Positions 28,464 through 55,573 of a DNA stretch of 64,000 bases are shown piece by piece. The notes below the pieces were generated by a model that was given only the letters and a program-made list of their open reading frames with translations, was not told the DNA's origin and searched no databases. This DNA comes from a halophilic archaeon SHRA6 (GTDB lineage Archaea > Halobacteriota > Halobacteria > Halobacteriales > Haloferacaceae), in assembly GCA_005239175.1 (NCBI GenBank), contig SOPS01000004.1, positions 248,001 through 312,000 on the forward strand, given 5' to 3'. Position 1 is the stretch's first letter. The number at the start of each line of letters is the position of its first letter. The position numbers and the translations under genes are program-made.

Positions 28464-28534
28464 GCGCCGGTGGTCTAGTGGTAGGACCTGAGCCTTCCAA
28501 GCTCATGGCCCGGGTTCAAATCCCGGCCGGCGCA
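28464..28534 (+). tRNA. tRNA-Gly (anticodon TCC)
   Basis: A 71-nt cloverleaf with acceptor GCGCCGG/CCGGCGC, discriminator A, D-arm containing TAGTGGTA, anticodon stem TGAGC/GCTCA around loop CTTCCAA (anticodon TCC), and T-arm CCGGG-TTCAAAT-CCCGG. No intron is present. CCA is not encoded. A copy of its last 22 nt lies 86 bp downstream. Confidence 0.97.
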
Positions 28535-28563
28535 TTTTCTGTCGAGCGAAGCGAGGCGAAAAT
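28534..28563 (+). repeat. Hairpin with constant loop directly after tRNA-Gly
   Basis: The arms ATTTTC and GAAAAT pair around the 12-nt core GAGCGAAGCGAG (28544-28555). It begins at the tRNA discriminator base, so it could be a transcription terminator or processing signal. The same core recurs in other hairpins after both tRNA genes. Confidence 0.7.
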
Positions 28564-28584
28564 CACCACGAGATTTGAAGTAGA

Positions 28585-28616
28585 GAAGACGCGCACAGCG
28601 AAGCGAGCACGTCTTC
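28585..28616 (+). repeat. Second constant-loop hairpin after tRNA-Gly
   Basis: Perfect 7-nt arms GAAGACG and CGTCTTC enclose a core CAGCGAAGCGAG (28596-28607) that is nearly identical to the core of the first hairpin although the arms are unrelated. Confidence 0.65.
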
Positions 28617-28620
28617 GCGT

Positions 28621-28642
28621 GGTTCAAATCCCGGCCGGCGCA
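28621..28642 (+). repeat. Duplicated 3' end of tRNA-Gly (att-like)
   Basis: A 22-nt exact direct repeat of the tRNA T-arm plus acceptor 3' end and discriminator (28513-28534). It lacks the rest of the tRNA, so it is not a gene. Such repeats are left by integrases that use tRNA 3' ends, or by local duplication. Confidence 0.85.
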
Positions 28643-54394: not shown

Positions 54395-54468
54395 CCGCCC
54401 TTAGCTCAGCCTGGTAGAGCAGCCGACTGTAGATCGGCTTGTCCCCCGTTCAATTCGGGGAGGGCGGA
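54395..54468 (+). tRNA. tRNA-Tyr (anticodon GTA)
   Basis: A 74-nt cloverleaf: acceptor CCGCCCT/AGGGCGG, discriminator A, D-stem GCTC/GAGC, anticodon stem GCCGA/TCGGC around loop CTGTAGA (anticodon GTA), and T-arm CCCCG-TTCAATT-CGGGG. TTCTTAAG about 30 nt upstream resembles a TATA box. No intron is visible in this copy. Partial copies of the gene lie downstream. Confidence 0.96.
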
Positions 54469-54502
54469 TTTCTTCTGCGAACGAAGTGAGCAGTGAGAAA
54501 TC
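54467..54502 (+). repeat. Constant-loop hairpin directly after tRNA-Tyr
   Basis: Arms GATTTCTTCTGC and its near-complement CAGTGAGAAATC enclose GAACGAAGTGAG (54479-54490), the same kind of core as after tRNA-Gly. It overlaps the last two bases of the tRNA. Confidence 0.7.
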
Positions 54503-54533
54503 ACTCGCCGAGCCGAATTGTGCAGACGAGTCA

Positions 54534-54575
54534 CAGCCCGGAACGGCGAGCGGAGCGAGCCGCATGCCCGGACTG
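54534..54575 (+). repeat. Second constant-loop hairpin after tRNA-Tyr
   Basis: Arms CAGCCCGGAACGGC and CCGCATGCCCGGACTG pair with small bulges around GAGCGGAGCGAG (54548-54559). A third related core, GAGCGGAGCGAA, is at 54668-54679. Confidence 0.7.
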
Positions 54576-54584
54576 TCTCGGCGA

Positions 54585-54605
54585 GTTCAATTCGGGGAGG
54601 GCGGA
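54585..54605 (+). repeat. Duplicated 3' end of tRNA-Tyr
   Basis: A 21-nt exact copy of tRNA-Tyr positions 54448-54468 (T-loop through discriminator). It starts 116 nt past the tRNA end and is preceded by inverted-repeat DNA related to the tRNA itself (CTCGGCGAG opposite CTCGCCGAG at 54504-54512). Confidence 0.85.
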
Positions 54606-54636
54606 CTTCCTTTTTGACCGATTCTGATGCGTAATT

Positions 54637-54661
54637 GACTGTAGATCGGCTTTTCCCCCGT
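54637..54661 (+). repeat. Duplicated anticodon-arm segment of tRNA-Tyr
   Basis: A 25-nt copy, with one mismatch, of tRNA-Tyr positions 54425-54449 (anticodon stem-loop and variable region). It comes after the 3'-end copy, so order is scrambled. Not a functional tRNA. Confidence 0.8.
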
Positions 54662-54826
54662 CCTCGTGAGCGGAGCGAACAAGGGCTCGGAAGTGTGTTT
54701 TTCATCCGGATTTACGCAGGAATCGAGACTCAACATATCAGCTTGCGTGTCAGAACACAAACCAGTTCGTATGTCAGAAATTCGAATGTGAGCTGGACGT
54801 GAATTCTACTGCGAGGCCCCTCGATT

Positions 54827-55573
54827 TCACTCGTGGGTCATTGAGCCGCTTGGTAGACTCGAAATAATCGATTTCGTAAGTGCGGGTTCGAGTCCACTAT
54901 CCCGGTATCCTGCTGCCAAGTTGACGTCGACAGCCCAATACTGGTCCTCGGCATCTCTGACAAAATCAACCCCGACACCCCGGAGATCGAACCGCTCAAC
55001 GAGTTGTCGAAGAGACGCTGCAAGTGCTGGTCTGACCTGTGTGTCGCCGACGAACTGTTTCTCCCGGTAGAGCTTCGAGGTGACGCGTTTCCCTGCGACG
55101 TGTATCTGTTCCCCGTCATTAACGGCATAATACTTGTAATCAACTGGATCCGTCGGGATCAGCTCTTGATAGAAATCTCCCTCACCATTGAGTTCGGGTT
55201 CGCCGTCCCAGATATAGTAGCCTTTTGCGACGTACTCGATCGTTGGTTTCTCAAAGGTGACTGGGGGTGTGCGAAACCCCATCTCCGATAGCGCTCGAAG
55301 ACCGACTAGCCGTGAACTGAACAAAATCGTTGCCTGAAGGTTGTTCCACAGCGGCGTTCCCTCCCGATGAGCATGCCTCAGCGCCGGGAGTGCGCTCGGA
55401 AGGGTCTTTTTGTTGACAATCACCGAGAGGTCGGCAATCTGCTCTACTGAGAGCTGAGATTGCGGATCGAAGAATCGAACTCGAAACCCTTCGTTCCGAA
55501 GACGATCGGCCACCTCCCTGAACACTGGCTTGTGCTTTTGACACAGGATGCCGATACTCCCGCTTTTTCCCAT
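54827..55573 (-). CDS. RimK-like ATP-grasp protein
   Basis: A 248-aa protein with ATP-grasp features: the preATP-grasp Rossmann part (I-G-I-L-C-Q-K-H-K), A-K-G-Y-Y-I-W-D-G (lysine/ATP region), K-Y-Y-A-V-N-D-G and the metal motif V-D-V-N-L-A-A-G-Y near the end. Such enzymes join a carboxylate to an amine using ATP. The typical family length is about 280-300, so it is a short version. Neighbouring genes do not identify the substrate; the gap to the P450 gene is 145 nt and both point the same way. Confidence 0.78.
   Translation of the reverse strand: MGKSGSIGILCQKHKPVFREVADRLRNEGFRVRFFDPQSQLSVEQIADLSVIVNKKTLPSALPALRHAHREGTPLWNNLQATILFSSRLVGLRALSEMGFRTPPVTFEKPTIEYVAKGYYIWDGEPELNGEGDFYQELIPTDPVDYKYYAVNDGEQIHVAGKRVTSKLYREKQFVGDTQVRPALAASLRQLVERFDLRGVGVDFVRDAEDQYWAVDVNLAAGYRDSGLEPALTKSIISSLPSGSMTHE

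Follow-up and report, generated by a model that had tools for sequence, protein, structure and literature searches.

Short hairpin units with host-matched tRNA tails behind haloarchaeal tRNA genes suggest a miniature mobile DNA

tRNA genes are classic docking sites of mobile DNA. Tyrosine-integrase elements of the SNJ2/pleolipovirus and HF1/HF2 types integrate at the 3' end of a tRNA gene without damaging the tRNA and carry a terminal direct repeat of the 3' part of the tRNA. They comprise an integrase and kilobases of genes, and their repeats measure about 13-14 or 43-49 nt. The units described here share the insertion site, the intact tRNA and the terminal repeat, but they contain no genes, have a 22-nt repeat starting from the T loop, carry a hairpin matched to the tRNA and stand in arrays; their sequences do not match integrase attachment boxes. 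In the open-access papers searched, tRNA-tail repeats are described solely as the ends of proviruses or islands (e.g. PMC3119063, PMC7911831).

Integron attC sites and gene-less attC clusters resemble the units in their imperfect inverted repeat, paired boxes, unpaired centre, occasional extra stem base and variable apex (PMC2727003), and integron arrays likewise gain members at one end. However, the attC core box GTTRRRY is not matched by the unit copies, which read GTTCAAA or GTTCGAA; the units carry no gene cassettes, their docking site is the tRNA gene itself, and the enzyme of the integron is IntI, a recombinase with an additional domain. Given the different core box and the absence of genes, the likeness is one of plan only and the units are not classed as integron attC. 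Casposons and other Cas1-type systems share a target at the tRNA 3' end that includes TCAAATC, a target duplication and placement of the newest insert beside the leader. A casposon identity was rejected on geometry, as the casposon duplication comprises 14-15 bp downstream of the motif, whereas the repeat of the units (tRNA positions 52-73, 22 bp) contains motif and T loop (PMC6614799). Casposons are marked by a cas1-solo gene and element-specific terminal inverted repeats; the units have no room for a Cas1 gene. MITEs and REP-type palindromic elements are, like the units, short, non-coding, hairpin-forming, multicopy and presumably mobilised in trans. The units differ from them in standing strictly at tRNA 3' ends with host-matched arms, and the constant, shared terminal inverted repeats that define MITEs are absent, since the arms follow the host tRNA and the stems of the first hairpin differ.

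The window, that is the whole 64-kb stretch of DNA analysed, contains two loci of this kind, one behind tRNA-Tyr and one behind tRNA-Gly, with the following features.

54395..54468, + strand: intact tRNA-Tyr(GTA), host gene of the unit (ARAGORN; Rfam RF00005, 60.2 bits)
54469..54500, + strand: hairpin A (TTTCTT...loop GAACGAAGTGA...GAGAAA), abutting tRNA-Tyr (fold and motif search)
54505..54520, + strand: imperfect inverted copy of the tRNA-Tyr 3' end, forming the left arm of hairpin B (fold)
54521..54584, + strand: core of hairpin B with loop GAGCGGAGCGA (fold, sequence comparison)
54585..54605, + strand: direct, exact 21-nt copy of the tRNA-Tyr 3' end, forming the right arm of hairpin B and the end of the unit
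54637..54661, + strand: copy (24/25 nt) of tRNA-Tyr from the anticodon arm to the start of the T stem, conserved in the congener
54662..54685, + strand: third constant-loop hairpin, stem partly decayed (sequence)
28464..28534, + strand: tRNA-Gly(TCC), host gene of the second unit of the window (tRNA prediction)
28535..28620, + strand: spacer of the tRNA-Gly unit with hairpin A, inverted arm and hairpin B core (sequence, fold)
28621..28642, + strand: direct, exact 22-nt copy of the tRNA-Gly 3' end (sequence)

A sequence-only reading had described the tRNA-Tyr locus as scrambled tRNA fragments in a spacer with three constant-loop hairpins. The comparison bore out its exact 21-nt copy at 54585-54605 and all three hairpins, of which the third has a decayed stem; the anticodon-arm copy at 54637-54661 is present as well, with 24 of 25 nt identical. 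The term scrambled does not hold, as the 21-nt copy is the right end of a hairpin unit and the anticodon-arm copy belongs to something else. Between the tRNA-Tyr gene and the first copy lies a 116-nt spacer containing two hairpins, with the constant loops GAACGAAGTGA at 54479 and GAGCGGAGCGA at 54548, while the third hairpin follows the second copy, with GAGCGGAGCGA at 54668; its stem is a perfect 7-bp stem in the congener, Halalkalirubrum salinum N1521 (G001). A search for hairpins with tandem-GA loops and a stem of 4 bp or longer gave just two matches in the 64 kb, both in the tRNA-Tyr spacer, and none in 20 shuffles. About 62 nt of the hairpin B core of the Tyr unit are homologous to the unit behind the tRNA-Phe of the congener, and the tRNA-Gly(TCC) locus is built on the same unit plan as the tRNA-Tyr locus. 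Further downstream, window positions 54841-54905 hold a weakly tRNA-like stretch with look-alikes of a D-arm and a T-arm inside the 3' end of a reverse-strand ORF; an Rfam search of this stretch up to E = 1 gave no match.

Outward from the tRNA, a unit consists of hairpin A, an inverted copy of the tail of its own tRNA, the hairpin B core with tandem-GA loops, and a direct copy of tRNA positions 52-73. The spacer mostly measures 60-230 nt, to which the 22-nt repeat is added. Inverted arm, hairpin B and direct copy fold as a single long interrupted hairpin, which in the Tyr unit comprises an outer stem formed by the acceptor part of the copy, an internal loop, an inner 8-bp T-arm stem and a long, interrupted apical hairpin. 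Hairpin A often begins with a run of T, and its stems are nearly all unlike each other (66 distinct among 88). The core of hairpin B is conserved yet variable: CAGGGAGCGA...GAGCGACCGT is the commonest form, and CAGACGAGTCACAGC...GACTGTCTCGGCGA and CCTATCAGTCGCG...CACGTCTGATTCC also occur. The inverted tail copy is most marked at positions 54-63 but weak around 64-70; across the family, inverted arms match their own tRNA at 55%, against 17% for other tRNAs. A primer-binding site of the retroviral type was rejected for these arms, as the examples inspected by eye had no complement of CCA.

Copies of the own 3' end (positions 52-73, at least 18/21, at most 400 nt downstream) were found at 17 of the 44 tRNAs in the genome of the window, a count that leaves out a tandem tRNA-Asp pair; adding two weaker copies with a T-loop insertion gives 19 of 44. 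When the regions downstream of 44 tRNA genes of this genome and 43 of the congener were taken together, a match of at least 18/21 to the own tail followed within 400 nt at 38 of 87 tRNAs, including a few matches to the neighbouring gene of the tandem tRNA-Asp pair, and a match of at least 19/21 at 35 of 87. When tails were paired instead with the sequence downstream of other tRNAs, only ~0.6% of comparisons reached 18 or more, which excludes chance as the source of the own-tail copies. The sequence-only reading had noted such fragments at two different tRNAs of the window and proposed a common process; one unit plan at both loci, at many tRNAs and in many haloarchaeal genera strongly supports this. 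As to the refuting conditions named in that reading, slightly over half of the tRNAs of this genome have no unit behind them, but the two loci do have homologous parts in common. At the 5' ends of tRNAs, no upstream copies were seen except where tRNA genes stand in tandem, and mirror units on the 5' side were therefore rejected.

Identity between copy and tRNA is ~0.86-1.0 over positions 52-73 and falls near background outside both edges. A second class of copies starts at position 60/61 and ends at 73 (57 of 244 distinct copies, including a few with T-loop insertions), and many of these carry the hairpin in the opposite orientation. Such copies were seen at Gly-TCC, Arg-CCT and Ala loci (e.g. 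L257, L266, L166, L165), often after a reverse hairpin of the CTCGCTTCGCTCG type. Single-base insertions, for which gaps were permitted at positions 55-70, lie inside the T loop at positions 57-60 in 30 of 32 cases, and the anticodon-arm copy of the window ends at the near edge of the T loop. The edges at 52/53 and 60/61 together with the insertions at 57-60 bracket the T loop, and from these breakpoints we infer that it may be the site where DNA is cut and joined. An insertion of one base in the middle of the loop (TTCA-N-AATCC) recurs in several genera and in ~13% of distinct copies (e.g. L206, L226, L232, L270).

The reading that we favour, with a probability of about one half, is that the units are gene-less mini-cassettes which site-specific recombination within the T loop has inserted at the 3' ends of tRNA genes. 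The putative enzyme, most probably a trans-acting tyrosine recombinase, would exchange strands in the 7-nt T loop, with the hairpin as its folded attachment site. New units would enter beside the tRNA and leave it intact, while older units would be displaced downstream and then decay. An inverted arm that matches its own tRNA is in keeping with an attachment site of which the tRNA tail is a part. No integrase is present in the units, as their first spacers of 63-227 nt are too short, and no gene-bearing unit was found in the flanks examined.

Insertion by a transposase or a Cas1-like enzyme, which we consider rather improbable, would make the 22 bp a target-site duplication from staggered cuts at the start of the T loop and the end of the tRNA; quasi-palindrome correction, by template switching inside the hairpin, would later have matched the inverted arm to its new flank. 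Duplication of the target directly accounts for the copies of the own tRNA and for array growth on the tRNA side, as in CRISPR arrays, and it agrees with a hairpin core that is common to the tRNA-Tyr, tRNA-Phe and tRNA-Met units while their arms are own-specific. There is also a casposase that targets a tRNA 3' end and recognises TCAAATC, but its 14-15-bp duplication starts 8 bp downstream of this motif (PMC6614799), while the repeat of the units contains the T loop. A second process is moreover required for the matching inverted arm, and the 60/61 class of copies and the T-loop insertions are left unexplained.

Unit arrays consist of 1-5 copies and are best preserved beside the tRNA. In arrays of at least two copies, the first copy matched the tRNA more closely than the last in 41, less closely in 13 and equally well in 18. 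Among related species, units persist behind the same tRNA, and cases of clean presence versus absence were also found. At tRNA-Gly(CCC), the genome of the window has a 69-nt spacer and a 22-nt repeat that are both missing from the congener, with matching flanks, and an older, decayed unit follows behind. At tRNA-Gly(TCC) of a related genus, the proximal unit is missing in some species and differs in others, with the same older unit behind it, and at tRNA-Ser(TGA) the genome of the window and its congener share two units whose order is swapped; one of these units is recombined. As most cases lack outgroup polarity, any single gain or loss could be a loss by recombination between the repeats, and tandem duplication and unequal crossing-over could also alter the arrays. 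Overall, insertions of several kinds appear to enter beside the tRNA and to push older ones outward, and therefore the fragments at tRNA-Tyr stand in reversed order. The opposite order pointed out in the sequence-only reading is thus real, and successive tRNA-proximal insertions explain it instead of scrambling.

An alignment of 50 cores, drawn from 46 loci with 21 tRNA types, served to evaluate the fold of the units; in it, arm pairs and apical pairs show compensating changes. The pair at tRNA position 57 is TA in 24, CG in 20, TG in 4 and CA in 2 cores, and one apical pair is AT in 24, GC in 15, CG in 9 and CA in 2. Compensation in the arm partly follows from its tRNA origin, whereas that in the apical pairs does not. 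The compensating changes make it likely that the fold is maintained by selection or by the process that generates it. Folding energies are only moderately low (z of -1.8 to -2.0 for the Tyr unit and -0.2 for the Gly unit), and the G.T and A.C cases in the apical stems are too few to distinguish selection on RNA from selection on DNA.

Covarying folds would also be expected if the units were functional RNA, that is a structured tRNA trailer with a role in processing, termination or as a decoy, kept by selection and multiplied by unequal crossing-over between the 22-nt repeats. The hairpins lie mostly on the tRNA strand (35 vs 5), and this preference together with the covariation keeps an RNA role of the units as a candidate. 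The persistence of units at the same tRNA in related species points the same way, as does the fact that some first units have no T-run terminator where the tRNA ends. Hairpins are also able to terminate transcription in H. volcanii (PMC7237163). Nevertheless, we think it unlikely that this is what the units are, as most tRNAs of a genome have none and their presence varies among close relatives. The diversity of the hairpin A stems also argues against it, the T-rich start of many units should stop tRNA transcription, and a trailer hairpin needs no exact copy of the acceptor strand.

The anticodon-arm copy at 54637-54661 is probably the left part of an older attachment site of a conventional integrase and lies outside the unit, by analogy with larger elements at other tRNAs. 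The right part of this putative site is gone, and a hairpin comes next. Several genomes of a related genus have 43-49-nt repeats that cover tRNA-Gly from the anticodon region through its 3' end, some with units beyond, and archaeal integrases that use the anticodon loop exist (PMC8371274). In one of these genomes (G007), a 49-nt repeat of the tRNA-Gly 3' part is found 8.1 kb from the tRNA (L372, G007:C1:112900-122000). The 8.1-kb segment encodes an Eco57I-type restriction-modification protein, and two units lie beyond the 49-nt repeat; none of the three larger ORFs examined in it was recognised as an integrase.

At tRNA-Tyr itself, the congener contains a 14.5-kb provirus-like insert (L039:1987-16510) that is absent from the genome of the window. 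Its right end carries an integrase, it encodes a PHROG transcription-regulator protein, and it is bounded by a 13-bp repeat, CGGGGAGGGCGGA. To the right of the insert follows the same sequence as after the 21-nt copy in the window. Similarly short repeats were reported for proviruses of the pleolipovirus type (PMC7911831). In Haloferax marisrubri (L189:2120-7700), a 5.4-kb element with Rep (DUF1424) and integrase lies between tRNA-Trp and a pre-existing unit. Gene-bearing units were considered and rejected, as the only far copy with a hairpin in the flanks examined proved to be a complete unit behind an ordinary element.

Since ordinary elements use the same tRNAs (tRNA-Tyr of the congener, tRNA-Trp of Haloferax, the 8.1-kb segment at tRNA-Gly), the copies could be scars, namely attR sites of proviruses or plasmids whose interior was deleted. 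This probably explains the anticodon-arm copy. For the units as a whole it is very unlikely, because 21 tRNA types and many genera share one specific hairpin plan, which independent erosion cannot yield. In addition, the attR sites of two integrase elements that were inspected are without the unit hairpin, and the repeats of integrase-bearing or longer elements are of other lengths (about 13 or 43-49 nt).

When one mismatch is permitted, the most frequent inverted-arm motif occurs in 208 of 391 Halobacteria genomes and in 60 of 86 genera, while a reversed control pattern gave 0. In named genomes, 88 of 111 exact matches lie at most 1.5 kb downstream of a detected tRNA, mostly at 30-280 nt; most of the others are either bacterial and not near tRNAs, or haloarchaeal and situated at contig ends or where no tRNA was detected. 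Exact matches in similar contexts with no detected tRNA nearby were seen at L136, L154, L157, L187, L203, L210 and L227, several of them titled cyanobacteria. These matches are probably a conserved, unrelated sequence. Hairpin density was 0.61/kb within 600 nt behind tRNAs, a value inflated by the selection of these loci by motif, versus 0.009/kb elsewhere in the same loci. In loci chosen independently of the motif, an own-tail copy was present at 15 of 61 Halobacteria tRNAs, a rough rate as the sample leans to high-scoring tRNAs and includes a hand-picked second set, and at 0 of 52 tRNAs from the other classes of the phylum. In the samples examined, the units are restricted to Halobacteria. 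The unit motif was absent from viral contigs, and phage and plasmid records had no match to the unit consensus, which counts against the mobile-cassette reading.

Taken together, the data suggest that the units are a new kind of miniature mobile DNA that docks at tRNA genes. A further step, which we regard as conceivable though speculative, is an integron-like platform without genes, in which single-stranded hairpin cassettes tailored to the tRNA would be captured, shuffled and lost by a dedicated recombinase, with tRNA genes as the docks. As a caution for annotation, a tRNA-tail repeat need not be the end of a provirus. Behind many of its tRNA genes, a whole archaeal class bears tiny inserts whose tails match the tRNA and which seem not to have been described so far; no description was found in the open-access papers searched, and an earlier report in a subscription journal is possible. 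If the units do not move, they are a widespread, folded, tRNA-attached element in need of another explanation. If they do, they would be among the smallest integrative elements known, and at each tRNA they would naturally record the order of insertion.
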